From: Vibrio tritonius | Lineage (GTDB): Bacteria; Pseudomonadota; Gammaproteobacteria; Enterobacterales; Vibrionaceae | Assembly (NCBI RefSeq): GCF_001547935.1 | Contig: NZ_AP014636.1 | Location: 1,178,001-1,242,000 of the forward strand | DNA length: 64,000 nt | Direction of reading: 5' to 3' | Part shown: one piece after another, positions 34,723-64,000 of the stretch | How the letters are laid out: each line of letters opens with the position of its first letter | How positions within the stretch are numbered: position 1 is the first letter of the stretch | Translations under genes and position numbers: made by a program | Notes under the pieces: model-generated | The model's database searches: none | Told to the model about the DNA's origin: nothing | Seen by the model: the letters and a program-made list of their open reading frames with translations, nothing else

Positions 34723-34896
34723 GAACACCAAACCAAACCTTATTTATTCTGGCAGGCAATGTAGCTTGTTTTACAAGGTGAGGCAATGATGGTTGAAGTT
34801 GGCTTTGGGATGCGAACTTTTACATGATAAATCGCTTTTGAATAAGACCAGAAATAGCAACAGCATTATCCTATAAGATACCAATAAGGCTTTTAT

Positions 34897-35265: not shown

Positions 35266-35449
35266 AATCTCTCCCAGCACGACTTAGCAATATCCCATTC
35301 ACAATAAGTTCAGCCACATGAGTCTGCTCACGTATTGCTTATATCTCTGTAGAAATTCATCTTAGGCGTGAATGGTTTATTTATGGAATAGCGTAAATTG
35401 CAAAGTTACTTTGCTTTTTTATCGCCATTACGCTTAGTCATATTGTTCA

Positions 35450-37785: not shown

Positions 37786-37796
37786 TATTATGCTCC

Positions 37797-41082: not shown

Positions 41083-42290
41083 GATGCTTTCCTCTCAAAC
41101 ACAGTTGAGAAGAGCGCTAAGAGATTACGCTTCTCTTTTTTTACAGTGGGACGACCACATGCTAGATCCACCAAATGCGCTAATGCCGAGCTAAATTCGC
41201 CTAACTCAGAGACCTTTAACGGGCCTTTAAGCAGCTGCTGTTCCAATACCTTACCCGCGGTTGGCAATTGAAGATCGATACGACGACCGATGAATTTTTC
41301 AAACTCTTGACGGCTGATCGATTGAGACGTCTCTTGACGCAGATTCGCCACGATAACAATGCGCTGACCGTCCGTTTCATCGCCGATATTCTCCAACAGG
41401 CGCAAGGTATTACGCGCTGCAGTGACAGTGTAATCGACTACGATAATGCGGCTCTGCGCACAGTTAAGTACCTCAAGCGCACCTTGTGGTTGGCTTGCAG
41501 GCAAATCCCACACCACTTGATTAAACATTTGGCACAAGGTTGCACCAAGAGTTAGCACGTGGTCGTCAGCTAATCGTTCCTCCGCCACTTGATAGTTTGG
41601 CACTTGGTTAAGCAACGACAATTTATCCGACACTTGGGTCATCGAACGGTGCAAATAACGCACATCCAGATTGTCTGACTTGAGAACGCCATCCAAACCG
41701 CCATCTTGATTGATGCCCGCCAGTAGACCTAAACAGCCATTGGTACGGTCGTAATCGACCAGCGCCGTTGAAATACGTGACTGATTAGCCAACATTTGCG
41801 CAATACCAAATGCGATCGTTGACGTTCCTAATCCCCCTTTCACGCCAGTGACAGCAATTGTTCGTCCGATTAATTGCTCTTCAAGCACGCCTTTTTTCAT
41901 GCAGCTTAACGTCGCGGCGAGGCGATCTAAGGTGATCGGTTTTAGCAGGTAGTCAAAAATGCCTTGCGCCAACATATTGCGATACAAATCGAGGTTAACC
42001 TGCGAGCCTAAGGCAACGATTTTGCACGTTGGGCCAGTCACTTCAATCAAGCTGGCTAAGCTCTCTAATGGGTAGTGCTCCTGATCGATATCAACAAACA
42101 TCGCCATAGGGATTGCGTTGTCTTTTACCCATTGCGTTGCCTTTTCCACATTGCCGAGAAACACATTTTCCGGCGCACAGTTAAGGCGTTGAAAATCCTC
42201 GGCGTACAAGGCCACCTGATCTTTTTGAGTCGTAAACAGGACAATCGAACCGAGCTCATCTGCTGTGTATTGGAGTTGTTGTTCACTCAT
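41079..42290 (-). CDS. tadZ: TadZ/CpaE-like polar localisation ATPase
   Basis: A 403-residue protein with a receiver-like N-terminal domain (IVLFTTQKDQVALYAEDFQR, AQGIFDYLLKPITLDRLAA) and a MinD/ParA-like C-terminal domain. The deviant Walker motif is VKGGLGTSTIAFGIA near residue 152. TadZ places the Tad machine at the cell pole. The ATG at 42290 has GAGG eight bases upstream; a GTG nine bases earlier is possible. Confidence 0.9.
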   Translation of the reverse strand: MSEQQLQYTADELGSIVLFTTQKDQVALYAEDFQRLNCAPENVFLGNVEKATQWVKDNAIPMAMFVDIDQEHYPLESLASLIEVTGPTCKIVALGSQVNLDLYRNMLAQGIFDYLLKPITLDRLAATLSCMKKGVLEEQLIGRTIAVTGVKGGLGTSTIAFGIAQMLANQSRISTALVDYDRTNGCLGLLAGINQDGGLDGVLKSDNLDVRYLHRSMTQVSDKLSLLNQVPNYQVAEERLADDHVLTLGATLCQMFNQVVWDLPASQPQGALEVLNCAQSRIIVVDYTVTAARNTLRLLENIGDETDGQRIVIVANLRQETSQSISRQEFEKFIGRRIDLQLPTAGKVLEQQLLKGPLKVSELGEFSSALAHLVDLACGRPTVKKEKRNLLALFSTVFERKAS

Positions 42291-42306
42291 GATGCTCACC
42301 TCGTGG

Positions 42307-42948
42307 TTAGTCTTCGTTGAAATCGATATCGAGCAATTCTTTTAGCTCATCTTCTTGGTAACGCTTAACCGCTTGTAAAGCGGCTTCGCCATCGCCTGGC
42401 CCAAGCTCCTTGGCACGTAATAAATCGGCAGGGTCGCTCACCATGCGCGCAAGGTTAGCGCGCGTTGCACAGCCTAAAGGACCAATCGCTTCATAGGGTT
42501 TTATCGTCCATGTGCTCGCATCGTGAATCCGACAATCTGGCACGGTAACCACCAATGCCTGCGACTGTACGCGCAAGTCCCACTGCGCCTTATCGGCTTG
42601 ATAAGTCATCGGCAAAATACGCACATCAATTACGCCAGCCTGTTGCAGTGCGGCATGCAATTTGTTGGCAAACTGCTGGCCATCATTGGAATAAGGCTGA
42701 ATCGTGAGCTGCTGCTTGGACAATCTGCCCTGATTGGTCAGCAACGAGTTGAGATTTTGCATCGATTCAGGGCTTAATCCCTTGTGTTCAGTGAGTTGCA
42801 AAGAGACGGCGGATACCGTCGGTGCCACTTTAATCGGGTAGTTTTTTCCGCTTGCAACGGTTTCATCACCTTCACGCCAATGGTTGATGGTTTGCTCACA
42901 TCCGGTCAGCAGAACACATGCAATCGCTAAAGAAATGGTTAAACGCAT
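42307..42948 (-). CDS. CpaD/RcpB-like pilus assembly lipoprotein
   Basis: A 213-residue lipoprotein with lipobox CVLLTGC (Cys16). The CpaD signature region is VTVPDCRIHDASTW, then IGPLGCATRANLARMVSDPA. It is thought to help the secretin in the outer membrane. It lies between the secretin and tadZ genes. The C terminus is acidic (LDIDFNED). Confidence 0.85.
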   Translation of the reverse strand: MRLTISLAIACVLLTGCEQTINHWREGDETVASGKNYPIKVAPTVSAVSLQLTEHKGLSPESMQNLNSLLTNQGRLSKQQLTIQPYSNDGQQFANKLHAALQQAGVIDVRILPMTYQADKAQWDLRVQSQALVVTVPDCRIHDASTWTIKPYEAIGPLGCATRANLARMVSDPADLLRAKELGPGDGEAALQAVKRYQEDELKELLDIDFNED

Positions 42949-42966
42949 AATGTCACTCCCAGATGA

Positions 42967-44394
42967 TTAAAATAGGTAGCCAGCAGAGGCTTTTTCAGGA
43001 ATCGAGTTATCCAGCGGTTTAATGCCTTTACCCGGGGTTTGCAGTTCACCCGCTTGAGTAGGGCTGACCACATATGCGGTGGCGATGATCACCAGCTCAG
43101 TCTCTTCTTTCTCGTTAGATTCCGATTCAAAAAGACGGCCTAGCATCGGGATATTGCGCAGCCCAGGTACGCCATTGACGGTTTGGTTAACGTTAGAGCG
43201 CAGCATGCCTCCCAGAGCAAAGCTCTGTCCGCTCGCCAGCTCGACAGTGGTATCAGCGCGGCGCACTTTAAACGCTGGGATAACATTACCCGCTAACTCA
43301 ACCGATCCCTCATCAGAGAGATCGCTCACTTCTGGCGCAATGTGCAAACTAATGCGATTTGGCGACAGCAGGGTTGGTGTCATGCGCATGATCACCCCGT
43401 ACTGTTTGTAATCGATAGTGATGTTGTTGTTGGTCATGATGATGATTGGCACTTCACCACCTGCAGCAAAGCCAGCGGTTTCACCGGACATGGCGGTTAG
43501 GTTCGGCTCAGCCAAAATGCTCGCCATACCATTCGAAGAGAGCGCCGTTAATACGCCTGCCAATTTGCCGCTATGAGAAACACCACCTGCCATTGCATTG
43601 GTGACGGTGCTACCGGAAAAGACGCCCGTTGTGGCATCAAACAGAGAGGTGCCAGTATTGCGGATAAAGCTGTTGCCGTTATCAAGCAAGGCTTCCCAGC
43701 TAAAGCCCAGTTGCGAACTCAAGCTACGCGCCACTTCGACAATACGGACACTGATATTGATTTGCGCCGACAGTTCCACTTTCAATTGGTTAACCACGCG
43801 CACCGCCGGACCTTGACCGCCAGGCGCCCCTTGGCCACCTTGACCACCACCGCCCTTGTCGTCAGAAGATCCACCAGTAAAGGCAGTAATCGCGTCAATC
43901 ACTTGTTTAGACTGTTGGGGAGTTTGCACAGAGCCGCGAACAATGATGCCGTTTTCCGTTGAACGCATCAGCTTAACGTTGGCACCTTCAATTTCGGTAT
44001 TGATCTGTTTAGTTAACAAAGGCAAATCAAAATCCGCTTGAATAGTGGCAGCGAGAACTACTTTGTCCTCACTGTTAAGCGCATATAAGGTGGTGCTGCC
44101 TGCGCTTTCTGCATACACAAAAATGGTATTGGTAGATGGCGTATGAAAACTGGCCACTTTTGGATCAGCAATAAGAACGCGTGTCACCCTTTCAGGCAAG
44201 GTCAGCAAAGTACCATGTTTTACGGTCAAGGTAATCTTGTCCGTTACTTTGGCTTGCGAAAAAGCCTGAGCTGAGGACATGGTCTGCGGCGTGGTTTGAC
44301 CCGCAGAGGCAGCTTGTGCCACAGTCATTCCGTAGCATGCGTTGAGCAGCATAAAAGCCGTAAAGAGTTTTCTTGAAGAGTGAAAAGTCTTCAT
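42967..44394 (-). CDS. rcpA: RcpA/CpaC secretin
   Basis: A 475-residue outer-membrane secretin. A signal peptide ends near AQAASA (residue 31). A BON-like N domain is followed by the secretin core with VEVARSLSSQLGFSWEALLD, AAGGEVPIIIMTNNNITIDY and ALGGMLRSNVNQTVNGVPGL. Between them, residues 175-197 form a Gly/Gln-rich low-complexity insert, an unusual feature. It gives the pore for Flp pili. Confidence 0.93.
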   Translation of the reverse strand: MKTFHSSRKLFTAFMLLNACYGMTVAQAASAGQTTPQTMSSAQAFSQAKVTDKITLTVKHGTLLTLPERVTRVLIADPKVASFHTPSTNTIFVYAESAGSTTLYALNSEDKVVLAATIQADFDLPLLTKQINTEIEGANVKLMRSTENGIIVRGSVQTPQQSKQVIDAITAFTGGSSDDKGGGGQGGQGAPGGQGPAVRVVNQLKVELSAQINISVRIVEVARSLSSQLGFSWEALLDNGNSFIRNTGTSLFDATTGVFSGSTVTNAMAGGVSHSGKLAGVLTALSSNGMASILAEPNLTAMSGETAGFAAGGEVPIIIMTNNNITIDYKQYGVIMRMTPTLLSPNRISLHIAPEVSDLSDEGSVELAGNVIPAFKVRRADTTVELASGQSFALGGMLRSNVNQTVNGVPGLRNIPMLGRLFESESNEKEETELVIIATAYVVSPTQAGELQTPGKGIKPLDNSIPEKASAGYLF

Positions 44395-44450
44395 TAACGT
44401 TATTTCCTTTTATTCACAAGGCTGTGAGAGATATGGGTAGGCTAAGCAAT

Positions 44451-45362
44451 CTAGTTAGAGACTTGAGCTGCTTTCATGACTGAACCTTGATATTGAATGA
44501 CGGTCGCCGCTGGACTCTGTAATTGTTTATAAACATCGGTCGTGTCACTTAAGGTCGTCACATCGCGGGCCGCGAGTTCAGCGGAGGAAGTCTCTTCCGT
44601 CGTTGAATCATTCACGGCGCGAATCACCAATTGTAAGTTGCCAAGTTCGCGCGCAACCGTCAGACGTTCTGCTTGTTTGGGCGTTACTTCTAAAGTCACT
44701 GTTTCTGGGTAAACCGCTTTTTCTTTGGACTTCTCTTTGTCTTCTTTTATGCGCAGGGCACTGCGCTCTTTGTTGTTGAGCGCAAGCACTCGCACGTTAG
44801 TCACTAACGTTTGTGAAGCCACAAAAGGAAAGCTCATTAACGCATCGTCTTTGTCTGATTTTTTGCCGCTTTGTTTATCTTCAAGTCCCAAAATGACATC
44901 GACATGATCCCCTGCTTGCACAAGACCTGAACTACTCGAAACCGCATCAGTTGGTATTGCAACCGCGCGTTTTCCCGGTGTTAATACCGATGCAATAAAG
45001 CCCGGCTGCCCCGGTTTTACCACCACGTCGTACGTAAGAAGTTCACCTTTTGGCACCAGTTGATTGACGGTCGAACCATAAATTTCAGTTAAACCACCCG
45101 GCTCTTTTTTGAAATAAAATTCACTCGGATAATCACGGTCAACTTGCTTCCAGTACACATCGTTTGCACCGATAAAATCGCCAGGATGAAGCTCTCGGCC
45201 AGCGGTTAACACAGGGGCATAAATCGGAGCTGGCTCAGGGGTGATATCCACTTTAGGATGAACAGGCTTGGCCGGAGTAACGGTCATTCCTCGGACGATA
45301 AACGCGCCACCTAGGGCGAATACCAGTGCACCAGAAACAAACAACACTGATGAAATTTTCAT
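44451..45362 (-). CDS. cpaB: CpaB/RcpC pilus assembly protein
   Basis: A 303-residue protein with one N-terminal helix (ISSVLFVSGALVFALGGAFI), an SAF domain (LTAGRELHPGDFIGANDVYW) and the RcpC/CpaB domain (LTPGKRAVAIPTDAVSSSSG, AGDHVDVILGLED). A charged insert (KSDKDDA) lies in the second domain. The ATG at 45362 follows family length; a longer frame upstream would overlap the prepilin peptidase gene. Confidence 0.88.
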   Translation of the reverse strand: MKISSVLFVSGALVFALGGAFIVRGMTVTPAKPVHPKVDITPEPAPIYAPVLTAGRELHPGDFIGANDVYWKQVDRDYPSEFYFKKEPGGLTEIYGSTVNQLVPKGELLTYDVVVKPGQPGFIASVLTPGKRAVAIPTDAVSSSSGLVQAGDHVDVILGLEDKQSGKKSDKDDALMSFPFVASQTLVTNVRVLALNNKERSALRIKEDKEKSKEKAVYPETVTLEVTPKQAERLTVARELGNLQLVIRAVNDSTTEETSSAELAARDVTTLSDTTDVYKQLQSPAATVIQYQGSVMKAAQVSN

Positions 45363-45376
45363 AGAAAAAACAATCT

Positions 45377-45940
45377 CTAATGAGTTAAAGGAGTAGTTAG
45401 GGAGACAATAGCTCCAGCGGCTATCGCTAAGCCGTAAGGCAAACCGGCGGTATTGGGTCGTGTATACGCGGCTTGTGGCACTGGAATTCGTAGCCAAGGC
45501 ATCATGGTCGAGAGTTGCAAAATCCACTTTGCTCCCGCCATTTCAACGATGCGGATAAAAGGCATGAGCAATGCCAGCACGCCACCGGCGAGCGCTGTGA
45601 TGAGCAAAAATGCGACCTGATTATTGCCACCGACCAAAAGGCACAGTACCGCCATCAACTTGACGTCCCCTGCGCCCATTTGCCCAATCGCAAACAAGCC
45701 AAAACCGATGGACAGCACAGCCACTGCACCAACGAGCGACCAACCAAACTGCGCTGCAGCATGCGCCAGTGAAAGCGAGGCATAACTGCCCAGTCCAACG
45801 AAAAACAACACGCCATTACCAAGCGCCAACAGCAAAAGAAACAAAATTAGGTGGTTATGGATTTTGCGATAAAACAGGTCACTAAAAACGACCACGCCTA
45901 ATGGAATTAATAAGCTTTGCAGCACCAATAAATTATTCAT
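45377..45940 (-). CDS. tadV: TadV/CpaA prepilin peptidase
   Basis: A 187-residue A24-type aspartic membrane peptidase that cleaves Flp and pseudopilin leaders. Catalytic aspartates are in VVFSDLFYRKIHN and in MGAGDVKLMAVL (the GxGD motif). About six helices. It starts 20 bases after flp. Confidence 0.9.
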   Translation of the reverse strand: MNNLLVLQSLLIPLGVVVFSDLFYRKIHNHLILFLLLLALGNGVLFFVGLGSYASLSLAHAAAQFGWSLVGAVAVLSIGFGLFAIGQMGAGDVKLMAVLCLLVGGNNQVAFLLITALAGGVLALLMPFIRIVEMAGAKWILQLSTMMPWLRIPVPQAAYTRPNTAGLPYGLAIAAGAIVSLTTPLTH

Positions 45941-45959
45941 AACCACGTTTGCCTAGAAC

Positions 45960-46157
45960 TTATTTGCCATCGGTGGTTGCGGTATCGGTAATTTGGTCTG
46001 CAATTGAGGCGAAACGCTCTTTCAATGCCGTCACAAATACACCATCAGAACCAAAAATAACGCCGATGGCTGCCGCCATTGCTGCTGCCAAAATTCCATA
46101 TTCAATCGCCGTTACACCACTTTCATCAGCGATAAATTTTTTCAGTTGAGCTTTCAT
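45960..46157 (-). CDS. flp: Flp-type major pilin
   Basis: A 65-residue Flp prepilin. Leader ends at Gly14, then VTAIEYGILAAAMAAAIGVI, with the invariant Glu/Tyr pair of Flp pilins. AGGAAG lies eight bases before the ATG. It is the first gene of the Tad operon and usually the most expressed. Confidence 0.95.
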   Translation of the reverse strand: MKAQLKKFIADESGVTAIEYGILAAAMAAAIGVIFGSDGVFVTALKERFASIADQITDTATTDGK

Positions 46158-46225
46158 GTTTTCACTTCCTATTTACAAATGACAAGGAGAAGACCGATTG
46201 TGTGGGTGTCTCTCTTTGCTCGTAT

Positions 46226-46240
46226 TAAGAGTTATTCTCA
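46226..46240 (-). promoter_or_regulatory. Fur-box-like site upstream of flp
   Basis: Read on the minus strand, TGAGAATAACTCTTA fits the 7-1-7 Fur pattern TGATAAT-n-ATTATCA well on its left half and weakly on the right. It lies 69 bases before the flp ATG. Confidence 0.35.
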
Positions 46241-46416
46241 TTTGCATTTCAACACAGCAAACATTAAGAATGCTTAATAAAAGTATCAACCACCTTTCAT
46301 AACATCATGTTTTTAATTAAGTTATTACTCTAAAAACCGCTTAACGAGCCCAATATCAAGCCTCTTTATCTCAATCAAAAAAATAATTACTATTGTTATA
46401 CATTAACAGTTGATAT

Positions 46417-46431
46417 TGAGAATGGTTATCA
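46417..46431 (+). promoter_or_regulatory. Fur-box-like site upstream of the two-component system
   Basis: TGAGAATGGTTATCA matches the 7-1-7 Fur pattern at 12 of 14 positions. It lies 57 bases before the response regulator ATG, in a 330-base divergent gap that otherwise shows only promoters. Confidence 0.55.
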
Positions 46432-46487
46432 TTAATATTGTTCGCGTTTTGTAAATCTGTGTCAGTTTTGTCAACTAAGGAAAAACC

Positions 46488-47156
46488 ATGCGTGTTCTCA
46501 TCGTTGAGGATGAAATCCCTGTCAGTCATTGGATCAGCAGTAAACTGCAATCTAACGGGCACACATGTAAGCTCTCTGATAACGGAGCGCAAGCACTAGC
46601 ATTAATTCAAAACGAAGTGTTTGATGTGGTGGTACTGGATAATATGCTGCCTGAAATGACCGGGATTGAAGTATTAAATAATTTGCAAAATACTCCTCAC
46701 CCACCGGTATTAATTCTCTCAGCGAATGATCAAACATCTGACCGAATATTAGGTCTTAAATCGGGTGCAGATGATTATTTAGGTAAACCTTTCGACTTTA
46801 CTGAATTATTACTCAGACTCGAACGCCTTTATCATCGTTCGCAAAAAATCACGTCGCAGCACACCACGCAAATTGGCAGTGTGAATATCGACTTAGAACA
46901 ACAGAAGGTGACACGTAACGGCAAAAATGTGCTGCTAACCAGTAAAGAATTCAAGCTATTACAAGTGCTGGTGGAACATCGGGGTAAAACGGTGACGCGC
47001 AACATGCTGCTTGAGCGGGTATGGGGCTATAACTTTGATCCACAAACCAATATTTTGGATGTGCATCTCTCCAAATTGCGTAATAAATTAAACAGCAATG
47101 AGGATGCAGAGCCGCTTATTCGCACTATTCGTTCGAAAGGTTATTCACTAGGATAA
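46488..47156 (+). CDS. OmpR/PhoB-family response regulator
   Basis: A 222-residue response regulator. The receiver has acidic residues in VEDEIPVSHW, phospho-acceptor Asp51 in VVVLDNMLPEM and Lys in YLGKPFDF. The winged helix follows (residues about 125-220, LLTSKEFKLLQVLVEHRGKT, NILDVHLSKLRNKL). TAAGGAA precedes the ATG. Divergent from the Tad operon and followed nine bases later by its kinase, so control of Tad pili is the simple inference. Confidence 0.93.
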   Translation: MRVLIVEDEIPVSHWISSKLQSNGHTCKLSDNGAQALALIQNEVFDVVVLDNMLPEMTGIEVLNNLQNTPHPPVLILSANDQTSDRILGLKSGADDYLGKPFDFTELLLRLERLYHRSQKITSQHTTQIGSVNIDLEQQKVTRNGKNVLLTSKEFKLLQVLVEHRGKTVTRNMLLERVWGYNFDPQTNILDVHLSKLRNKLNSNEDAEPLIRTIRSKGYSLG

Positions 47157-47165
47157 ACGTTCTCT

Positions 47166-48542
47166 ATGCCTGTTCGTTTAATTATTCATAGTAGCAGTTT
47201 TCGTCAAGCTGCTTATGTTGCTTTCTTTTGTCTGATTATTTCATCAGCCTCCATTTTATTAAGTGACAAATTATTAAAAAATGTGATGCATGATCATGTA
47301 CAAAATATGATCTTAGATGACATTAAAAATAAACAAAATATGAATCTCTTCAGTAGCAGCCAGAAATTGGCTGACTACTTAAATCAACGTGAATTGACCA
47401 ATCAATACGATGAACTCATCACCTACGCTTTTAATCCCATTGGTGACCTACTCTATGGTGACGCGCAAATTCTTACCGTCGATGAACTAAAGAGCATTCT
47501 CACTCGCCAACAAGCGCATATCTCAACGCTCAGTTTTCATAAACCACAGAAAGAGCTGTATGGCATGGTGATTCCCATTGCCGATGGTGGCTCATACTAT
47601 GCCTCCTACAATATGTCGCCGATGCTCAATAGCACGCGCATTATTCCTCTGATGACGGGAGCGGTGTTATTTACGGTATTACTCTCTATTTTATTGATTA
47701 GTTTACCTTTTAGTATCAAAAACTTGCTGCGCGTGAACCGTATTTTGAAAGTGATGGGCGAATACGCCAAAGGCGATCACCATGTGCGTATTACCGATGC
47801 GGGTTATAACGACGAATTTGGACGGCTCAGCAGCGAAACCAACTTGCTACTAAGTCGCACGCAACTGCTGATGGAGCAAGTCAAAACCGCTAACAGCCAC
47901 ATTGCCCATGAGCTAAAAACGCCATTAACGCGCCTTAAGCATCGCCTCATTAATACCTCTGAAATGGTCGATGGCTCTGCCCTTGATGAGCTGGATGCGG
48001 CAGGTTTGGAAATCGACCGAATCCTCTATCTGTTTCGCGCCATCATGCAGTTGTCTGAAATTGAAAATGGCCAACTGTCACTTCAACGAGAGTCGATTGA
48101 CGCGCACCATTTGCTCTCTGAAGTGCGCGATTACTATGAGCCGTTATTGGAAGATAAAGGCATCGAACTCAAAATCAAAGTCGCGCATAAAGCCGTGTTT
48201 TACGCCGACTACGCCTTGATTTTTCAAGCAGTGGCGAACCTTTTGGATAACGCCATCAAGTACGCACCACAAAGCTCGATGATCAAACTGCAAGTTGAGC
48301 AGCAGCTCGAAACCACTTATATCCATGTGATTGACCAAGGACCTGGAATCCCAGACGACCAACTGAGCTTGGTGCTCAAACGCTTTCATCGCCTTGAACG
48401 AGTAAAAAGTATCGAAGGTTTTGGTCTCGGCCTACCGTTTGTTCAAGCGGTCGCCGAACGTCATAAAGGTCGCTTTACCCTAGTGAATGGTCAAACTGGA
48501 CTGATTGCCACCATCAGTTGCCGTGCGATGCCGATGGCCTAG
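47166..48542 (+). CDS. Sensor histidine kinase
   Basis: A 458-residue membrane kinase. Two helices (near residues 15-35 and 160-185) frame a periplasmic sensor of about 120 residues. A HAMP segment follows (VMGEYAKGDHHVRITDAGYN). The H box is AHELKTPLTRLKH with His248. The N box is NLLDNAIKYAP, and the G boxes are DQGPGIPDD and GFGLGLPFV. Partner of the response regulator just upstream. Confidence 0.92.
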   Translation: MPVRLIIHSSSFRQAAYVAFFCLIISSASILLSDKLLKNVMHDHVQNMILDDIKNKQNMNLFSSSQKLADYLNQRELTNQYDELITYAFNPIGDLLYGDAQILTVDELKSILTRQQAHISTLSFHKPQKELYGMVIPIADGGSYYASYNMSPMLNSTRIIPLMTGAVLFTVLLSILLISLPFSIKNLLRVNRILKVMGEYAKGDHHVRITDAGYNDEFGRLSSETNLLLSRTQLLMEQVKTANSHIAHELKTPLTRLKHRLINTSEMVDGSALDELDAAGLEIDRILYLFRAIMQLSEIENGQLSLQRESIDAHHLLSEVRDYYEPLLEDKGIELKIKVAHKAVFYADYALIFQAVANLLDNAIKYAPQSSMIKLQVEQQLETTYIHVIDQGPGIPDDQLSLVLKRFHRLERVKSIEGFGLGLPFVQAVAERHKGRFTLVNGQTGLIATISCRAMPMA

Positions 48543-54801: not shown

Positions 54802-56916
54802 TTACATAACCGACTCGCGGATCAGGACTTTCATGATGGCTTGCCACACACGGCTGAGAATACTTTGTCCTTCACCTTCGATGGTAACTTGGCCGCGCAT
54901 TTGAAATGCGGGGGCGTCCGTGTCTTGGACTTGCAGCGTCGCTAGGTAAAGGGCTTGCTCGGGTATCGGTTGATGGGTTTTCCGATCAATAGTTGCGGCA
55001 ATCGGGCCAAGGTAAGGAGAACTGAGTTCAGGGTGAGCGCTAAGGTTATCAATCGTGCCAAGTGATAGTTTGGATAGCTGCAGTGCAACTGGCGGTTGAT
55101 TGAGATTTTCAGCCACAAACACCGCGGTTGCACCAGCGTTTAGACGCGCGTATTGATGTTCATCGATATAGGCATCAACGCGGCTCTCTTGATTGCTGAT
55201 GAGTGTCGCTAATACTTGTCCTGTCGCGAGCCAATCCCCAGCCTGCAGGTAGGGATTCACATCGACGACTTGTCCTGAAAATGGCGCACGCACGGTTAAT
55301 TCATCGAGTAATGTTTGCTGCTGAGCCAGTCGCTGAGTAATAACCACCAGCTCATCGCGGATGATGGCTAAATCCGCCGAAGCCTTTTTATCAAAAGGAT
55401 AGGATTGCAGTTGCTTGAGTAAACTCTGCTGGCGATAGGTCAGCTCGGTTATACTCTGCAAAAGTAAAGGAGAGCTTAGCCGAAACAGCACCTCACCCTC
55501 CTGCACTTGCTGGCCCGATTGAACCTCGATGGTCTGCAACTGGGCATCTTGCGCCACAAACAGTGTTTGCTGTTTGGCTAGCCACATGGCAGGAGCGCTG
55601 ATGGTTTGATGCCACGGCACAATTAAGCTAATCAGTAACAGTAGACTCGTGATAAGTGTCAGTTTGGTATTGAGATTAAAGGTCATTTTTTGTTTTTGGC
55701 TCAGCCAATAGCGAATTTCATAAACACAAGGACGAACCAGCAGATACGCGATTTCGACCATAAATAGCACCACACCTAAGGCTTTGAACACTAGGTGATA
55801 AATCCCAAAGGCAATGCCAAAATAGAGAGTTAAGCGATAGAGCCACATGGCAAAGGCATAGCTGATGACCAACCGTTGACGCGCCTTGCGCATTGGCTCT
55901 GGTGCTGCATCCTGCCACCCCCACAACCATGACCGAATTTTCCATTGCGCCATTTTGGTTGCGCGCTGTTGCAAATTCGGCATCTCGAGCCAATCAGAAA
56001 AAATAAAGTAGCCATCAAAACGCATTAAAGGACTAAGGTTGACCGACAGCGATAACAGTAGCGATGTGGTAGCAAGGGTGAGTAACACGCTGCGCGCGAT
56101 CCCCGGGTCAAAGAAGTTCCACAGTAGTAGCGCCCATGCAGCAATCACTGCTTCAGTGAGCATGCCAGCAGCGCTTATCATCATACGCGGGCGCTGCTGT
56201 TTTAGCCGCCATGCAGTAGTGACATCGGTATAAAGCACCGGCCAAAACAAAATGAAGTTCACCCCCATGGTTGCCACTCGCCCATGGTACTTTTTGCAGA
56301 CAAACGCATGCCCCAATTCGTGAAGCACCTTCACGACAATCACCGTAGTGACGGAAAGCACGATGCCCGAAAAAGAAAACAGATAGGAAAACCCAGCGCT
56401 AAACTCCTGCCACTGATGAGACGCTAACCACAGCCCCATCAGTCCAACTAAGGCACTGAGTTGAATAAACTGACGGGACAATAATGGTCGCACCCAAGGT
56501 AATGCTTTGGTTAGCCACGCATCCGGTGAGCAGAGCGGTACGCGAAACGACAGATGACGTTGAAACAACCATTGCCACCATTTTTGAGCACTTCGCCGCT
56601 GTTTATCTTGTTCGATTAGCTGCTCACTATCAGCCTGCACCAATTGGTTGTGTTGCAGAAAACGAATAAACGCCCCAAGCTGCGTGGCATTGGGGCTTAA
56701 GGTCGTAGTTTGGCAAATGCGTTTAAGCAGCTCCTCTGCCGATGACTGCCAATGGGCCAAAAACTCGGTTTCTAACCAACCCAGTTGAAAGAACTGCCCG
56801 CGAACGGGATCTTCTAAAGTCCAACGCGGCGCGCCATTGTCTGCGGCTGGCGCTTCATGCAAACGCAACTCTTGACGCAGTGGAGGTAAGCATTCAGGCA
56901 AGCTTGCGCTCATCAT
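54802..56916 (-). CDS. PqqD-like / M50 zinc protease / HlyD fusion protein
   Basis: A 704-residue inner-membrane protein. The first 110 residues resemble a PqqD/winged-helix peptide-binding domain (APRWTLEDPVRGQFFQLGWL). An M50 site-2-protease core follows: HELGHA at 199-204 and NLSPLMRFDGY, with the third ligand Asp near 300, among about eight helices. After the last helix (near residues 420-445) comes a periplasmic HlyD-type lipoyl and coiled-coil domain (LQTIEVQSGQQVQEGEVLFR, VRAPFSGQVVDVNPYLQAGD). No ABC ATPase is encoded nearby. The ATG overlaps the previous stop as ATGA. A role in processing or moving the large surface protein upstream is inferred from the operon. Confidence 0.85.
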   Translation of the reverse strand: MMSASLPECLPPLRQELRLHEAPAADNGAPRWTLEDPVRGQFFQLGWLETEFLAHWQSSAEELLKRICQTTTLSPNATQLGAFIRFLQHNQLVQADSEQLIEQDKQRRSAQKWWQWLFQRHLSFRVPLCSPDAWLTKALPWVRPLLSRQFIQLSALVGLMGLWLASHQWQEFSAGFSYLFSFSGIVLSVTTVIVVKVLHELGHAFVCKKYHGRVATMGVNFILFWPVLYTDVTTAWRLKQQRPRMMISAAGMLTEAVIAAWALLLWNFFDPGIARSVLLTLATTSLLLSLSVNLSPLMRFDGYFIFSDWLEMPNLQQRATKMAQWKIRSWLWGWQDAAPEPMRKARQRLVISYAFAMWLYRLTLYFGIAFGIYHLVFKALGVVLFMVEIAYLLVRPCVYEIRYWLSQKQKMTFNLNTKLTLITSLLLLISLIVPWHQTISAPAMWLAKQQTLFVAQDAQLQTIEVQSGQQVQEGEVLFRLSSPLLLQSITELTYRQQSLLKQLQSYPFDKKASADLAIIRDELVVITQRLAQQQTLLDELTVRAPFSGQVVDVNPYLQAGDWLATGQVLATLISNQESRVDAYIDEHQYARLNAGATAVFVAENLNQPPVALQLSKLSLGTIDNLSAHPELSSPYLGPIAATIDRKTHQPIPEQALYLATLQVQDTDAPAFQMRGQVTIEGEGQSILSRVWQAIMKVLIRESVM

Positions 56917-58373
56917 AAGCCGCCCCACCACATGCGTAAGTGCGACAAAGGACGACGCATTAGGTAATAAATCAACGAGGTGCGCTCACCATAGATTTTC
57001 GCCATCCCTTTTAGTCCCATGGTGGGCGAGTCTTGCTCTGCGTCCATCTGCGCTTTGAGTTCAAACGCATACTGGCCATCATTTTGTAGAGTCGAGCGAT
57101 AAGCAACGGTGCTTAACTTGGCAGGAATAGCATCCGTTGGTCGGCTATTAAGAAAAAAGCGCACTTCATCGCCTTGGCTAAGCGCCATTCGATCTTCCAC
57201 CGCGAGCTGAATTTTAATCACGGTATGAGTAGGATCGGCGATGTCCATTAAGGGTTCACCTAAGCGAATAGGACGTCCAACCCAATCGCCTTGATCGTCA
57301 AACAGAGTGATACCATCTTGCTGTGCCACTAACCGGGTTTGTGCAACTTTCTCTTGCAGATAAGCCACTTGAGAATGAGCAAGAGCCTGTTTGCCTTCCA
57401 AAATGGCAAGACTGGCTTTTCGACTGGCATCGTAAAAAGATTGCTGCTGCGCCACCCGCAGTTCCGCACTGGCAATGGAGAGCTGTTGCTGAGCTTGAGC
57501 AAGTTGATCGTCGAGGGTTTGTGAATCAAGCTCTAACAGCACATCGCCCTTTTTCACTGCGCTATTGGGTTTAACCCACAGCTTTTTGACTACGCCATCT
57601 AATGGCATGCGCACCGTCATTGGTGTAGCAGACACCACTTCTGCCGGAGCCAATACGGATTGACGCACTGGCAAAAATAGCGCCCCAACAGCCAACGCTC
57701 CAACCAACCACCACAGTTTTTTGTGACCGAGCATGGTGCGATGCATAGAACGCTCTTGAGACGAACTTCTTTCAAACCACGCCCGCTTTCGACTTTGCTG
57801 AGCTAAGGCTTGCCAAACAAAACCGACTTGTTCGCTCCAAAATGTGAGCAACCTTTTTTCTCTCAACGAGAGCGCTGTTGAACGAAACAGCCATAACCCA
57901 GCCACCAGCTCATGGTGTGAATTAAGTAATGGCACCCACACCGCCACTTGTGTGAAAGCCTCGCTGTTTGAGGAATCTGGATTTAAGCCATCAGCCTCAG
58001 CACTGAGTTTATCAAGCTCGACTTTGTGGATCTGTTTGCCCTGATCTTGGCGAGCAACCTGCTGACTTAATTTGGCCATCCACTGACTAAACGGCGCTTT
58101 CGGGTCGATGGTTGTAACTGCCGAAGCGCCGCACACGACTTGCCGTTTGGCGTCCCACAGCAAGGCTTGTTCATAATCGAGCAAGCTTTTGGTTTGATTG
58201 AGCACCACAAAATGAAGTTGATTCAGTGTCTCGGCCTCGCGCGCTTTTTGCTGCAGTTGTAGCAGTGTCAGCAGAGCTTGCTCAATCTCGTTACTCTGGG
58301 GTGAGGTGCTCGATGGTTGTGCGGTGATAGAGTGTTGCGAAGTGATAGTGTGTTGCGAGTGGGTCGTGCTCAT
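56913..58373 (-). CDS. GAF-like / HlyD adaptor fusion
   Basis: A 486-residue protein. A Ser/Thr/His/Gln-rich start and a GAF-like cytoplasmic domain (about residues 35-190, LNQTKSLLDYEQALLWDAKR, VAVWVPLLNSHHELVAGLWL) precede one helix (LWWLVGALAVGALFLPV). A periplasmic HlyD-type domain follows (VRMPLDGVVKKLWVKPNSAV, QDGITLFDDQGDWVGRPIRL). A GAF-type domain on an adaptor suggests cytoplasmic sensing. It starts one base inside the previous stop (TGATG), with AGGA upstream. Confidence 0.8.
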   Translation of the reverse strand: MSTTHSQHTITSQHSITAQPSSTSPQSNEIEQALLTLLQLQQKAREAETLNQLHFVVLNQTKSLLDYEQALLWDAKRQVVCGASAVTTIDPKAPFSQWMAKLSQQVARQDQGKQIHKVELDKLSAEADGLNPDSSNSEAFTQVAVWVPLLNSHHELVAGLWLFRSTALSLREKRLLTFWSEQVGFVWQALAQQSRKRAWFERSSSQERSMHRTMLGHKKLWWLVGALAVGALFLPVRQSVLAPAEVVSATPMTVRMPLDGVVKKLWVKPNSAVKKGDVLLELDSQTLDDQLAQAQQQLSIASAELRVAQQQSFYDASRKASLAILEGKQALAHSQVAYLQEKVAQTRLVAQQDGITLFDDQGDWVGRPIRLGEPLMDIADPTHTVIKIQLAVEDRMALSQGDEVRFFLNSRPTDAIPAKLSTVAYRSTLQNDGQYAFELKAQMDAEQDSPTMGLKGMAKIYGERTSLIYYLMRRPLSHLRMWWGGL

Positions 58374-59188
58374 CACTTGTTCCTATTACGACTGGTGAGC
58401 GTCATCTGCGCGCTCCCGCTCATACCCGGCATCAGAACCAGCCCTTCATGGGCCTGAATCTCGCCAAACACTTTAAACGATTGGCTTAGCGCATCGATTA
58501 CACTGCCTAACCGAGTCACTTTGGCAGGATAGGTTTGACCAGTTTCATCCAGCTGGACGGTAAAGGATTGACCAATTTGCAGAGCAGTTACCCAACGCGA
58601 TGGCACAATCATTTCCACATCGTACGCGTCGGTACTGTAGATATTGAGTAGCTTAGTGCCTTCACTTACAAATTCGCCCGGTTCGACCATGCGTTCAGAC
58701 ACCCGACCGGCAAAGGGCGCACGAATCGCACAGCGTTTCACCATGATATCGGCAGCGCGCTGCTCTGCCTTGGCTTTCGCAAAATCGGCACTCGCCTGCC
58801 CCACTTCCAAAACGCTATTGGATTCGAGGGTATTTAGCCGTTTTGCCACTTGGTATTTTTGCTGAGCCAGCTCGCTTTGCGCCAAGGTTTGTTGGTATTT
58901 GGCTTGATACAAATCGCACTCAATACTGGCGATCACGTCTCCTTTAGCAAAGTGTTGCCCCTCTTTAAACGGCACACGTTGCAAGCGCCCAGCAAGTTCA
59001 CTTGACACCACTAGCTGCGCTGCCGGTTCGAGTTGAATGCGAATGCTGTCAGATGGCTGCTGGCTTGGTACAACACTTGGTACAGCGCTTGGCATATTAC
59101 TGGCAGCGGCATGAAAGCTAATTCCAAGGCAAACGCCGCTAAGCAAAGCGGCGCTGCGTCCTTTGGTCAGTAAACCCTTACTTGGCAT
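58373..59188 (-). CDS. RND-type periplasmic adaptor
   Basis: A 271-residue membrane-fusion protein, shorter than typical RND adaptors. A signal peptide ends near FHAAASN. Lipoyl halves are LAGRLQRVPFKEGQHFAKGD and IRAPFAGRVSERMVEPGEFV, separated by a short coiled coil. No RND pump accompanies it. GGAGGAAACGA precedes the ATG, and the gene overlaps the TolC-type gene by 11 bases. Confidence 0.85.
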   Translation of the reverse strand: MPSKGLLTKGRSAALLSGVCLGISFHAAASNMPSAVPSVVPSQQPSDSIRIQLEPAAQLVVSSELAGRLQRVPFKEGQHFAKGDVIASIECDLYQAKYQQTLAQSELAQQKYQVAKRLNTLESNSVLEVGQASADFAKAKAEQRAADIMVKRCAIRAPFAGRVSERMVEPGEFVSEGTKLLNIYSTDAYDVEMIVPSRWVTALQIGQSFTVQLDETGQTYPAKVTRLGSVIDALSQSFKVFGEIQAHEGLVLMPGMSGSAQMTLTSRNRNK

Positions 59189-60890
59189 TCGTTTCCTCCA
59201 CTGGGCGGGTGTAGTCGTGGATAATCGCCGCTTTCAGAGAACCTAACGAATCATAAACCGAGACATACTCAGCAGGCTTGGTGCTGTTGCTCTCCGTAGC
59301 CACAGATTGAACAGGTGAAGTTGACTCGTGTGTGGTCACTTCCCCCTGTTTGACCAACGCAATCACCTGCTGTTGCTGAGCGGTTAACGTGCCCTTGGTC
59401 AGCAGCTGGTTTTGCTCTGCAATCGCTTGAGAGAGCGTTGCAACACTGGTGTCACGGATGGTTTTTGGCAGAGGATCTAACCCTGCTGCTTGGTAAATCG
59501 CGCCATAGGCAGTGTAAGCCTGCGCCAACTGTTGGTCACGATGGCGAGTGATCAGCGCCGTTTCGGTGAGCATTTTGATCTGCTCTAGACGCGATTTCAG
59601 GTCACTTTGGAAAGCACTTTGAGTTTGCTGAGCGATGCCTTGTTGCAAGCGCAGTAGCTCGGCAGCTTGCGCATATTGCGTTTGCGCTTGGCTATATTGT
59701 TGCCACGCCAAGTGAACTTGAGTAAGCACGGCCATGCGCAGCGCCTGACGTCTGAGCTCTGCCACTTCTTCTTTGGCTTTGCCCGCCTGTTTAATTGATG
59801 AATAGGAGAAGACATTCATCAAGTTCCAACTCACACGCACTCCAGCATCGGCCCAATGTTGATTAACCAGATAGCTGTTGCTGTCGTAGTGACCGCCGAC
59901 AAACAGCGATGCGCCCGGTAAGAGGTGCGTTAGCTGTGAGCGTGTTTCTAACACTGCATTACGTGCTTTGTAGATCTCTTCATTGATTTCTGGACGATTA
60001 ACCATTGCTAAGGTTTCTAAATGATCCAGTTGATAACCCACCGCTGGCAGCTGCGTTTTTGCCGTAGCAATAGGTGCCAATGTAAACGGTGTACCAGGAG
60101 CTAGGTTCATTAAGCTTGCCAGTTCGGTTTTCGCCATCACCAATTCTGCCGATAGGTTTTGTAACTGGGCTATCATCTGCAGCAGGCTTTTTTGATACTG
60201 CATCGCTTCAATTGGCGCGACCAAACGCTCTTGTTCCGTTAACTTGGCTTTGGCTAACGCTTGTTTGGCCTGCGACAATGCTTGATTTACGGTCGGCTCT
60301 AGCTGCTGCGCGGTCGCTGCTGCCCAGTAGGCTTTACGCACTTTTTGCATGATGTCGGCGACCACGGCGCGTTTTTGCTCCTCAGCTGCCAACACATTGT
60401 TGCCTTGGGCTTTGGCACCAAAATAGCCGATACCAAAGTCGAGTACGTTCCAGCTCAATGATAAATCGCCATTGGACACATTGCGGTCTTGGCTTGTGGA
60501 CGCCTCAAGTGATTGAGTGCCAGTAGAGACCGATTCGCTGGATGACGCAGCTTGGTTATCACGGGTACGCCAACCGGCACTTGCAGCAATCGAAGGCAAT
60601 AGATCATAGCGCTTACTGTCGAGTAATTGATTCTCGTAAGCGTGTTTCATCAGTGCTAAACGCTCTTGTAAGTTGTATTTCACTGCACGCGCCATCGCCT
60701 CTTCTAGAGTAATGGCATGCACAATCGGCTCCTGATGCGCAAACATGGCGAGTTGGTCTTGTGCTAACAGTGCACTTTTTTCCTGATCAGTCACCGCTTC
60801 AGGCGTTAATGAACAGCCAGATAAAACCACTAGGCTGGCAACAGAAAGACTTAATGCGCTCTTTTTAAAATAACGAGTTGTGTTTTTCAC
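59178..60890 (-). CDS. TolC-type outer-membrane lipoprotein
   Basis: A 570-residue outer-membrane factor with lipobox LVVLSGC (Cys26), two OEP domains with long helices (HAITLEEAMARAVKYNLQER; MFVN-less second repeat around MNVFSYSSIKQAGKAKEEVA), and a C-terminal extension of roughly 80 residues rich in Gln/Thr/Ser. First gene of the four-gene export set behind the large surface protein. Confidence 0.87.
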   Translation of the reverse strand: MKNTTRYFKKSALSLSVASLVVLSGCSLTPEAVTDQEKSALLAQDQLAMFAHQEPIVHAITLEEAMARAVKYNLQERLALMKHAYENQLLDSKRYDLLPSIAASAGWRTRDNQAASSSESVSTGTQSLEASTSQDRNVSNGDLSLSWNVLDFGIGYFGAKAQGNNVLAAEEQKRAVVADIMQKVRKAYWAAATAQQLEPTVNQALSQAKQALAKAKLTEQERLVAPIEAMQYQKSLLQMIAQLQNLSAELVMAKTELASLMNLAPGTPFTLAPIATAKTQLPAVGYQLDHLETLAMVNRPEINEEIYKARNAVLETRSQLTHLLPGASLFVGGHYDSNSYLVNQHWADAGVRVSWNLMNVFSYSSIKQAGKAKEEVAELRRQALRMAVLTQVHLAWQQYSQAQTQYAQAAELLRLQQGIAQQTQSAFQSDLKSRLEQIKMLTETALITRHRDQQLAQAYTAYGAIYQAAGLDPLPKTIRDTSVATLSQAIAEQNQLLTKGTLTAQQQQVIALVKQGEVTTHESTSPVQSVATESNSTKPAEYVSVYDSLGSLKAAIIHDYTRPVEETNAK

Positions 60891-60967
60891 TACGGGTTAC
60901 CACTGCTGGTGAAGCCACTTTCCTTTTTGCTTGTTGAATGTGGGAAAGCTGGCCTCGATTAAAGGTG

Positions 60968-60996
60968 AATAAGAGTGCGCTGCGCGCGCTCTTATT
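60968..60996 (-). terminator. Hairpin after the large surface-protein gene
   Basis: AATAAGAGTGCGC and GCGCGCTCTTATT pair at 12 of 13 positions around TGC. No T run follows on the minus strand. It lies between the surface-protein stop (61019) and the TolC-type gene (start 60890) and may lower read-through. Confidence 0.5.
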
Positions 60997-61018
60997 GCGG
61001 ATTCAATTTGGCAAAGTG

Positions 61019-64000
61019 TTAGCTCAGTTCTGCCAATAGACGTTGATTCTCCACGGCCATTGCTTGCTGACTTACCTGTTGGGTTTGCTGCCCTAACGTC
61101 ATCTGTTCAGAAACGGTGTGTTGCGACATGATGTGCTGCACACTCGCCTGCACCGATTGGCTATCAACCGGCACGCTTTGAATCGGTAAGGTCAGCTCTC
61201 TAACCTGACCGTTGGCATCTTGCGTAGTCACGGTGATGGTTGGATTCGACAGTCGGTTGGCTGCCTCACTATCGACCGTAAGCACACCCGTTTGCGGGTT
61301 GTAGCTGATACCATCAGGGAGCGGCTGGCCGTGTTCGCCGGTGACGTTCACCACTTTTAGCCCTGACAGAGCAGGCAATTCGAACAGATCGCGTTGCTCG
61401 CTGGAAGCTTGCTCTTCACTTGAGGATAACTCACTGTTTGCAGAGCCATCATTCTGCTGCAGCTCTTGCCACCAAAGCTCCGTTGTTGAAACAGTACTGG
61501 CTAAAACTGTACTTAACGCCGTATTAAACAGTTCAGAACCACTGACAGAGCTTACTTGTGGCGCATCACCACTTGCGATCAACGATTGCGCTTGTGGCGC
61601 GCTATTCACACCATCAAACCCCGCGCCCATCATGGGCTGTGAGATAAACGGCTCTTGCGCTGAAAAATCATGAATATGAGTGAATCGCTCGTCACTGGCA
61701 GAATTACTATTGTCGGGCTGTTCAGGTGAATTAGGATCCGTCGGCGTGCTCGGGTCCGTTGGTGTTGACGGTTCACTTGCTGCGCTCACCGCCAAGACAA
61801 AACTAAAGGTCGTGCTCATGCCGCCACTGTTGGTCACGGTGACCGCTATTGAATAATTACCCACTTGCGTTGGCGTGCCGCTTAACGTGTGGGTAGTAGC
61901 ATCAAAGCTTACGCCATCTGGCAAACCTGCTATCTGCCAAGTGAGCGTCAAATCTTGAGGATCCGTGACGCTATCTTGAGCGAATTGATAGTGGAACGCT
62001 TGGCCTTGCTCTGAACTTACCAAAGCTTGCTCAAAATTCACCAGCGGCGGTTCGATAGCCTCCACGACCGTCATCGTCCAGCTGTTGCTGTTTTCTGCCC
62101 CTTCATTATCAGCCGTGGTTAACGTAAAGGTGAGCTGCTCGCCACTGGTGCTATCTGCGCTAACCGTATACTGCACCGCGTGTAACAGGGTATTAAGCTG
62201 GCTTTGACTCACATTGCCAGTCACGTTTAGCACCCACTGCCCATTGGTAAAGGCATAAGTAGCGACGGTTTCCCCATTGAAGGTGATGGTGCCATCACTG
62301 GCAGAAAAACCTGAGCTGCTGCCGAGAGAGAGGTTATCTGCTGACAAGTTGGCATCGCTGCTGGTGAGGGTAAACGTAAATCCCGCGTATGAATCGCTCA
62401 ACGCACTATCAGGATCGGTCACCTCAATCGTCGGCATGAGAACCCCACTACTGCCTATCGCTATGCTAGGTTCATAAACCGTAGAGTTAAAATAGGTAAA
62501 CTCATTGCCACCCAGCAACACATGTCCATCACTGGTGACTTGCAAATCGGCATCGGTTGACGAGATAGCCACGCTATCAATCAATGTTAGGTTTGAGCCC
62601 GAAATCAGGTAACGCTGTAAACTGCCCTCGCTGGTAGTGACATAGAGCACAGAGCCATCTGGCGAGAGTGCGCTATCGACAACGTTACTTAGCTCTACTG
62701 AGCCACGAGTGGTAAAGGTATTACTCTCATTATCAAAGTGATACAGGCTGATGCCACTATTGGTTATTGCATAGATGCTTTGCCCATCTTCTGCCACCAC
62801 CAAATCTTTGATGTCCGTGCTTATCGACATAGTGGCACCGTTAGCGTCGGTATTACCATTACGAATGTAACCCACCCAGTTCAAACCTGAGTCTTCGATC
62901 TTATAAGCAATTAAGGTCGCGGATGAGAAATTAGTGGTGACGAACAGATAGTCACCGGAGACGGCAATGGCCGTCGCTTGATACATGTAAGGCTCAGAGT
63001 AGGCACCACTGTAGGTCTGGACATTCGTTAATTCTCCCGTGTTGCTGTCAACCTGATAAGAGTAGAGACTGTAATCAGACGTAAAGAACAGATAACGACC
63101 ATCGTCTGATAACGTAAAGTTGCTCATCGCATCGTAAACAGAGAAATCCATCGAGGTCATCGATACCACTTGCTGCTGCGTTAGCTCGCCTGCACTATCG
63201 ACGGTATAGACGGTCACTTCGCTGTAGGTAGTGCTGTATTGATCCAATTTAGAGGTAATGGCAAACAGTTGACTCCCGTCAGCATTCGTCACCAAGGTTT
63301 GTGCTGTACTCTCGCCAGCCAAAGTGTACAGATGACTAAGCGCACCAGTGGTGCTGTCCAGCGCGTAAACCGCGATGTGTCCCTCATTATCAGAAACAAA
63401 CAAGCGATTACCTGATTTAGAGACCACGGTGTCTGCGATATCCGTAAGATCCGTCAGTTGGTCAGAAGAGGTAATCGAATCAAGCAAACCTTGGTCGAAC
63501 AAAGCCCCCAGCGAGGTCAGCGGCGCATCATTGACTTGCGTAAACGCAATCGACTTGGTGTACACCTGCGATGCTTCCCCAAATGAATCGGTCACAGTTA
63601 GTGATACCTGTGTACTCTCAGCCAGCGCATCGGCATTGTTGGTGTAATGAATCAGCGATAATACTTGATTGACATCCGCAGTGGTCGGAATGGTTTTATA
63701 CGCTTCGGTGAAAGTTATCTTAATCCCTGTATCGGTGTTTTCGACCGTGGCGATCACCACACCATCTTTAAGAATCTGCTGCGATGTGTAGGTGTAAGTA
63801 TCATCGCCTTCGATTGTGATCTCACCATCGGAATCGCCACTCTCTTTGCTAATAGTGATAACAGCGCCGGCGTAGTTACCCTGTCCATCATTACGCGCAT
63901 CCATTTCCGCATCGGAGACGGAAACTCCATCGAACAGAGAGTGTGAGCCGCTGTTTTCCGTGTAGGCAAGCGTGCCACTATCACCGTTGATCTCCGGAAG
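61019..64000 (-). CDS. Large cadherin-like / beta-propeller surface protein (3' part)
   Basis: The C-terminal 993 residues of a secreted protein. The frame stays open to the window edge, so the start lies outside; the apparent Met at 63904 is internal, inside a repeat domain. Visible order: cadherin-like repeat with LAYTENSGSHSLFDGVSVSD; a lactonase-like beta propeller (about 150-510, repeats such as LFVSDNEGHIAVYALDSTTG); another repeat; a putative Ig domain (LPDGVSFDATTHTLSGTPTQ); a Pro/Thr linker (STPTDPSTPTDPNSPEQPD); and a Gln-rich end (QMTLGQQTQQVSQQAMAVE). I see no RTX nonapeptides and no C-terminal type I signal. It heads the export cluster behind it. Confidence 0.88.
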   Translation of the reverse strand, partial: LPEINGDSGTLAYTENSGSHSLFDGVSVSDAEMDARNDGQGNYAGAVITISKESGDSDGEITIEGDDTYTYTSQQILKDGVVIATVENTDTGIKITFTEAYKTIPTTADVNQVLSLIHYTNNADALAESTQVSLTVTDSFGEASQVYTKSIAFTQVNDAPLTSLGALFDQGLLDSITSSDQLTDLTDIADTVVSKSGNRLFVSDNEGHIAVYALDSTTGALSHLYTLAGESTAQTLVTNADGSQLFAITSKLDQYSTTYSEVTVYTVDSAGELTQQQVVSMTSMDFSVYDAMSNFTLSDDGRYLFFTSDYSLYSYQVDSNTGELTNVQTYSGAYSEPYMYQATAIAVSGDYLFVTTNFSSATLIAYKIEDSGLNWVGYIRNGNTDANGATMSISTDIKDLVVAEDGQSIYAITNSGISLYHFDNESNTFTTRGSVELSNVVDSALSPDGSVLYVTTSEGSLQRYLISGSNLTLIDSVAISSTDADLQVTSDGHVLLGGNEFTYFNSTVYEPSIAIGSSGVLMPTIEVTDPDSALSDSYAGFTFTLTSSDANLSADNLSLGSSSGFSASDGTITFNGETVATYAFTNGQWVLNVTGNVSQSQLNTLLHAVQYTVSADSTSGEQLTFTLTTADNEGAENSNSWTMTVVEAIEPPLVNFEQALVSSEQGQAFHYQFAQDSVTDPQDLTLTWQIAGLPDGVSFDATTHTLSGTPTQVGNYSIAVTVTNSGGMSTTFSFVLAVSAASEPSTPTDPSTPTDPNSPEQPDNSNSASDERFTHIHDFSAQEPFISQPMMGAGFDGVNSAPQAQSLIASGDAPQVSSVSGSELFNTALSTVLASTVSTTELWWQELQQNDGSANSELSSSEEQASSEQRDLFELPALSGLKVVNVTGEHGQPLPDGISYNPQTGVLTVDSEAANRLSNPTITVTTQDANGQVRELTLPIQSVPVDSQSVQASVQHIMSQHTVSEQMTLGQQTQQVSQQAMAVENQRLLAELS

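Follow-up and report, generated by a model that had tools for sequence, protein, structure and literature searches.

Five genes on the minus strand at one end of a 64,000-nt stretch of the Vibrio tritonius genome (RefSeq assembly GCF_001547935.1, contig NZ_AP014636.1, positions 1,178,001 to 1,242,000; hereafter the window) probably constitute a dedicated route for the processing and export of a very large surface protein. At the center of the set is a protein that joins a RiPP recognition element (RRE; RiPP, ribosomally synthesized and post-translationally modified peptide), an M50 site-2 protease and an HlyD-type adaptor. The evidence consists of gene content and synteny, the co-occurrence of the protease with a motif found in large proteins (LEPR-XLL), recurrent motifs at both ends of those proteins, the modelled folds of the RRE and the adaptor, and the conservation of protease residues.

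The Gene Set in the Window

A first-pass annotation of the sequence had described a giant protein followed by four overlapping or abutting genes, and the genes are placed as it said. In the direction of transcription they are the large protein, whose in-window part (61019..64000) is the substrate candidate; a TolC-family outer membrane factor (OMF) of 570 aa with a lipobox-like LSGC in its sequence (59178..60890; PF02321, 95.8 bits); a short RND-type periplasmic adaptor of 271 aa (58373..59188; TIGR01730, 127.5 bits against a cut-off of 94.9); a GAF-like/transmembrane/HlyD adaptor protein of 487 aa (56913..58376; HlyD_3); and the RRE/M50/HlyD fusion of 709 aa (54802..56931), characterized by Pfam and NCBIfam, an alignment of 30 members and an AlphaFold2 model with a pLDDT of 85. 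Within the set, Pfam and NCBIfam assign OEP, HlyD_3/RND_mfp and Peptidase_M50 plus HlyD_3. The tight packing of the last four genes is borne out, since the RND-type adaptor, GAF/HlyD and M50/HlyD genes overlap their upstream neighbors by 11, 4 and 19 nt, respectively, lengths that rest on mechanically chosen start codons.

Two of the earlier labels need qualification. The large open reading frame (ORF) is real and runs past the edge of the window, but when completed from the genome (G000:C2:1239019-1244190, to window-scale position 66190) it encodes 1,723 aa, a modest giant. In the GAF/HlyD protein the HlyD part is matched and PF01590 is found in 6 of 34 aligned members (best 2.4e-6), but the GAF part of the window's own protein has no match in Pfam.

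The end of the large ORF and the start of the OMF gene are separated by 128 nt. A terminator scan of this gap found one site where 0.8 would be expected, that is, not above chance. Between the two genes lies an inverted repeat with a GC-rich center, AATAAGAG...CTCTTATT (window 60960-61000), which judging from its sequence is possibly a processing or attenuation site.

The Protease Fusion

The alignment of M50 proteins comprises that of the window and 29 of 120 listed relatives. Both motifs of the family are present in all 30: HExxH at residues 204-208 (56308..56322, minus strand), with H204, E205 and H208 invariant, and NxxPxxxxDG at residues 298-307 (56011..56040, minus strand), with N298, P301, D306 and G307 invariant. 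PF02163 is matched at 27.8 bits (cut-off 27.2), and the sequence of the protease core resembles that of MJ0392 weakly (E 0.0012). Among 18 more distant relatives, some of them fragments, HExxH is found in 17 and NxxPxxxxDG in 13.

The C-terminal part, residues 433-692 (54856..55635, minus strand), is an adaptor region of the HlyD/membrane fusion protein (MFP) type, with Foldseek and VIA matches to MacA, MexA, AcrA and EmrA. Because the fold search with the whole protein mainly reached these residues, the N-terminal domain was modelled separately. The alignment of N-terminal domains omits four members (L038 and L076 for frame errors, L052 and L085 to shorten the list). Residues 12-100 (56632..56898, minus strand) model as an RRE, with the PqqD-like winged-helix fold that binds the leaders of RiPPs. 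The earlier guess of a PqqD-like N terminus is thus upheld by the modelled fold; Pfam PqqD matches none of the 30 aligned members, and a search of PDB sequences with the N-terminal profile gave four matches (E 0.31 and worse) that are regarded as chance.

Association with LEPR-XLL Proteins

The large protein begins MKGFPTESSLHAFMLEPRIVFDGD and bears LEPRIVFDGD near its N terminus, outside the window. It is this end that resembles the LEPR-XLL proteins, with scores on both sides of the cut-off: NF012209 gives 20.2 bits in a six-frame search of the genome and 14.6 bits in a scan of the whole protein, against a cut-off of 17. The in-window part matches He_PIG and Lactonase, a match to tandem-95 is weak and below cut-off, and an annotated plasmid-borne relative extends over 21.6 kb. 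LEPR-XLL is named in two papers, in one of them for a Vibrio protein of about 8,000 aa. NF012209 names only the motif, and its link to the RRE/M50/HlyD set is the addition of this work.

The link appears in several samples. In 40 genomes, which stand behind 40 of the 80 loci considered below, LEPR-XLL exceeds its cut-off in 29, as against 1 of 14 control genomes. The same 40 genomes contain 51 strong M50 sites, 37 of them with a LEPR match within 60 kb; of these 37 matches, 36 are on the same strand, 34 lie in open frames of 1,500-4,115 aa, and 24 are over cut-off and 13 below it, counted from 64 LEPR rows that retain every match over cut-off and omit many weaker ones. In a sample from the class (276 genomes), 38 have M50 (E ≤ 1e-60) and 41 have LEPR (E ≤ 0.06); the two coincide in 27 genomes, against an expectation of 5.6, and 21 of the 24 genomes with a LEPR match of at least 20 bits also have M50. 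In a partly overlapping sample from the phylum (397 genomes), 69 have a close relative of the protease (E ≤ 1e-180) and 58 have LEPR (E ≤ 0.02); the two occur together in 38 genomes, compared with 10.1 expected. Twenty genomes of the phylum sample have LEPR with no strong M50. Six of these were examined: a more distant M50 relative lies near the LEPR protein in all four whose flanks were inspected (G578, G467, G654 and G451), and one is present somewhere in the genomes of the other two (G089 and G131). In most of the LEPR N termini themselves, the start is basic and the core lies near A-LEPR-[ILM]-[ML]-[FL]-D-[GA]-A.

A Motif at the C Terminus

Large proteins linked to the protease also have a recurrent element, [FL]xxQ[LIFVM], 17-49 residues before their end. 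It was assessed in 43 non-redundant proteins: L022, L027 and L030 were excluded because they did not look like substrates, and near-duplicates were removed (from 49 to 43). A loose form of the pattern is found in the final 60 residues of 37 of the 43, against 118 of 1,119 body windows, and a strict form in 29, against 9 of 1,119, both patterns having been derived from much of this same set. On 19 ORFs from regions fetched later, the loose form is found in 15 (against 55 of 599 body windows, 9%) and the strict form in 8 (against 8 of 599); the 19 include two that look wrong-frame and were kept (L223, L233) and one near-copy (L215) of the training locus L010. In the window, the element falls within the C-terminal 60 aa of the large protein (61022..61201, minus strand; VSEQM ... 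LLAEL).

LEPR proteins at five loci (L150, L153, L157, L165 and L170) end instead in PAWxxxDP after a hydrophobic stretch, and the [FL]xxQ[LIFVM] tail is therefore not universal. From sequence, the PAWxxxDP tail suggests a second sorting class.

Recurrence of the Set

Relatives of the M50 protein are encoded by 579 stretches, and the 80 loci from named genomes are among the matches listed; by record title they include many Pseudomonadota, some Nitrospirota and sulphate reducers. The main count was made on the 58 loci with at least 5.5 kb upstream, the 22 shorter ones being excluded, and the gene profiles used here, in the later regions and in the tail tests derive from proteins that these loci encode. 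GAF/HlyD is found at 56 of the 58, the short adaptor at 48, the OMF at 45 and all three partners at 44. A same-strand ORF of more than 900 aa lies somewhere in the locus in 47 cases, and one LEPR ORF brings the number to 48, so the proposed association of the four-gene set with a large protein is the usual condition. The 40 regions fetched later, several cut by contig ends, have GAF in 36, RND in 33, OMF in 21 and all three in 20. Clustering of neighbors yielded non-core groups in at most 14 loci, consisting of antisense artefacts, two-component regulators and mixed ABC-type proteins (8 loci; ABC, ATP-binding cassette).

The set is also found on plasmids. A relative of the protease occurs in 51 of 72,556 plasmid records, including Escherichia (17 records), Citrobacter and Azospirillum. 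Three annotated plasmids have the complete gene order, with products named TolC, RND adaptor and HlyD (twice), beside DUF4347 or Ig-like proteins. The same five-gene order is seen on the IncF-type Escherichia coli plasmid NZ_CP022155.1 (L267, L270), whose large Ig-like protein starts MTTIKNRRLRPRAHRFALESRQLFDGAA and has LESR in place of LEPR. On plasmid pMSR-1 of Magnetospirillum gryphiswaldense (L269:6505-14091) the version is compact, and its ELWxxDGT-repeat protein has 492 aa, a similar tail (GKPTFQEEL) and an annotated start with no LEPR. At three loci of the Rhizobiaceae group (L033, L056 and L081), the next sizeable same-strand ORF after the M50 gene is one of 362 aa.

Comparison with Known Systems

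Type I secretion systems consist of an ABC transporter, an MFP and an OMF, as in HlyBD-TolC and LapBCE. The set resembles them in its HlyD-type adaptors, its TolC-type channel and its very large substrates, which are of the repeat type and lack a clear Sec signal, and it has both MFP and OMF. It differs in having a site-2 protease where the ABC ATPase is expected, and its substrates have an N-terminal LEPR and a short tail, with the RTX pattern GGxGxD occurring at most once in any of 41 protease-linked large ORFs, many of them partial (some LEPR proteins at sister loci have several RTX matches). Because it has no ABC component, the set does not qualify as a type I secretion system, although it may function similarly to one.

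The absence of an ABC ATPase from the cluster, claimed in the first-pass annotation, extends beyond it: no ORF with Walker A plus LSGGQ was found across the 19.5 kb around the set (G000:C2:1228000-1247500). An ABC gene just past position 64000 is likewise ruled out. What is found there is a 551-aa gene 18 nt upstream of the large ORF, which resembles TadG only weakly (17.7 bits against a cut-off of 22.3), and next upstream of it the haem genes HutZ and HutX. None of the 40 later regions has an ABC gene on the same strand. Type I secretion with an ABC of its own was considered as the principal explanation and rejected on the counts from the 58 loci, the 80 loci and the 40 regions.

The abstract of the review PMC8277102 names ABC, RND and MFS (major facilitator superfamily) as the energized inner-membrane families of tripartite efflux pumps. 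The set shares with these pumps an OMF and a periplasmic adaptor over the RND_mfp cut-off, and differs in encoding none of the three families named there.

Weighing the Explanations

A number of observations tell against a dedicated export route. First, the set contains no energized transporter. Second, a gene with an ABC signature lies within 5 kb at 2 of the 58 loci and at 6 of the 80 (four of the six belong to the 22 short-upstream loci outside the main count), so the earlier prediction that the set is never accompanied by an ABC gene is largely, not wholly, borne out. One of the six, at L013 in Serratia marcescens, is a type I ABC of the HlyB type that exceeds its cut-off. It lies on the other strand, 2.1 kb from the M50 gene (L013:14262-16361:-), and is the only type I ABC within 5 kb among the 80 loci, the other five genes being DrrA-like (L015), OppD-like (L023), importer-like (L035), UrtE (L036) and a PtuA-like ATPase (L025). 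In genomes G035 and G036 the M50 gene is about 14 kb away from an LssB-type ABC that exceeds its cut-off. Third, no OMF was found near the protease at 13 of the 58 loci and at 19 of the 40 later regions, some of which are truncated by contig ends. Fourth, the strict tail pattern drops from 29/43 to 8/19 on the later loci, and the tail of the window's own protein matches only the loose pattern.

The association with LEPR-XLL also has its exceptions. Genome G229 (100% complete) has a 28.9-bit LEPR match (G229:C57:21725-21784) within a frame of 7,373 aa, yet none of the 39 candidates scored there is an M50 relative at E 1e-10; a weak adaptor-like match (32 bits) lies near the LEPR frame. Conversely, LEPR is missing at E ≤ 0.06 from 11 of the 38 M50 genomes of the class sample; a more permissive search brought none of them up to the cut-off, although four have a weak LEPR match near the protease. 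Two further cases are not decisive, since the LEPR match is on a 3,130-base contig in G106 and in a 99-aa frame in G143. Finally, the genomes are related and the samples overlap, and Fisher values for the co-occurrence therefore overstate independence.

The nearby type I ABC genes of L013, G035 and G036 speak for an explanation in which the set forms a type I secretion system with an ABC gene located elsewhere, and the M50 fusion is no more than an accessory processing factor. Three models of type I ABC proteins with curated cut-offs (TIGR03375, TIGR01842 and TIGR01846) were used to look for such genes. The genome of the window has one LssB-type ABC over cut-off, on contig C1 (G000:C1:1064668-1066755), and of 37 selected genomes, 19 exceed the cut-off of TIGR03375 and 15 that of TIGR01842. 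ABC half-transporters match TIGR01846 in all 16 genomes searched with it, in 15 below cut-off only, which leaves room for a shared ABC acting in trans. On the other side, 10 of the 16 genomes lack a type I ABC over any of the three cut-offs; the genomes were partly chosen after the results with the first two models, and in each one the 22-38 best candidates were scored. Seven of the ten have a strong M50 (G012, G017, G031, G142, G185, G238 and G287) and three a sister M50 (G089, G130 and G252), and G238, G089 and G130 are single-contig genomes. I consider a distant ABC of this kind unlikely.

The lack of an energized pump would also be accommodated if Sec or some other general pathway took the large protein through the inner membrane, leaving to the cluster only its processing and its carriage across, or anchoring in, the outer membrane. 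This, too, seems improbable in light of a crude hydropathy test with two controls, which is not a signal-peptide predictor: the peak of the window protein's N terminus is 1.43, against 2.07 and 2.42 for the controls, and 26 of 27 LEPR N termini fall below 2.07. One, at 2.27, exceeds the weaker Sec-type control, and another, at 2.01, nearly equals it.

A cluster that makes and exports a small RiPP-like peptide, with the large protein an unrelated neighbor, would have precedent in its protease. The daptide protease MpaP is an M50 protein with an N-terminal RRE, according to PMC10036551, and the epipeptide protease YydH/EpeP, also M50, is thought to perform cleavage as well as export (PMC10885120). 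The present protease differs from both in being fused to an HlyD adaptor, in scoring under both NCBIfam cut-offs (166.9 bits for the window protein with the daptide model NF041824, cut-off 300) and in its partners, which have from about 500 to many thousand residues rather than being short peptides. Large ORFs with LEPR and tail motifs repeatedly adjoin the protease, and neighbor clustering, which covered ORFs of 100 aa or more, found no recurrent small partner, so that I give this explanation very little credence.

Least credible of all is a regulatory role for the M50 protein with HlyD parts that only sense the envelope: site-2 proteases often act in signalling and a GAF domain occurs in relatives, but no sigma/anti-sigma pair was noticed among recurrent neighbors, whose families were judged by eye, and the RRE and HlyD folds indicate the handling of a substrate.

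A Possible Mechanism

The favored explanation, then, is a dedicated route for a very large protein, and from the evidence given I infer how such a route might bind, cleave and transport its substrate. The RRE, at the cytoplasmic end of the M50 protein, would bind the LEPR motif near the N terminus of the substrate, much as RiPP leaders are bound, and the site-2 protease may next remove the LEPR leader. The periplasmic adaptor and the HlyD parts of the M50 and GAF proteins would together bridge the inner membrane to the TolC-like channel, and these three HlyD-type parts would hand the substrate to the OMF. The tail motif could be a second signal, for engagement or for retention at the surface, and the GAF domain may gate activity through a ligand. 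More tentatively, and with rather more doubt than confidence, the set may represent a distinct class of secretion, in which the fusion of site-2 protease, RRE and adaptor is itself the inner-membrane translocon, reading the leader and tail of giant proteins with no ATP hydrolysis by a dedicated ABC protein. The set was not found described in the open-license literature of PubMed Central, a search outside of which lie most subscription papers and every bioRxiv preprint.

Elsewhere in the window (33505-48542) is a Tad pilus cluster with a response regulator/histidine kinase pair. In Marinomonas (L008, L010) the M50 set directly adjoins a Tad pilus cluster and a two-component system that are relatives of those at 38738-48542. 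Ahead of the large protein, the window genome and the Marinomonas loci alike have a TadG-like gene. A role in adhesion or surface structure is plausible because the two Marinomonas loci place the set beside these genes.

Significance

LEPR-XLL is a curated motif for which no stated role was found, and the set offers a machine for it. A widespread group of genes, otherwise only TolC and generic adaptors in the annotated records examined, gains an explanation at the same time. If the explanation is right, it would stretch leader recognition in the style of RiPPs from short peptides to giant proteins. Direct tests can now be made of how cells in which no type I ABC is seen release their giant proteins.
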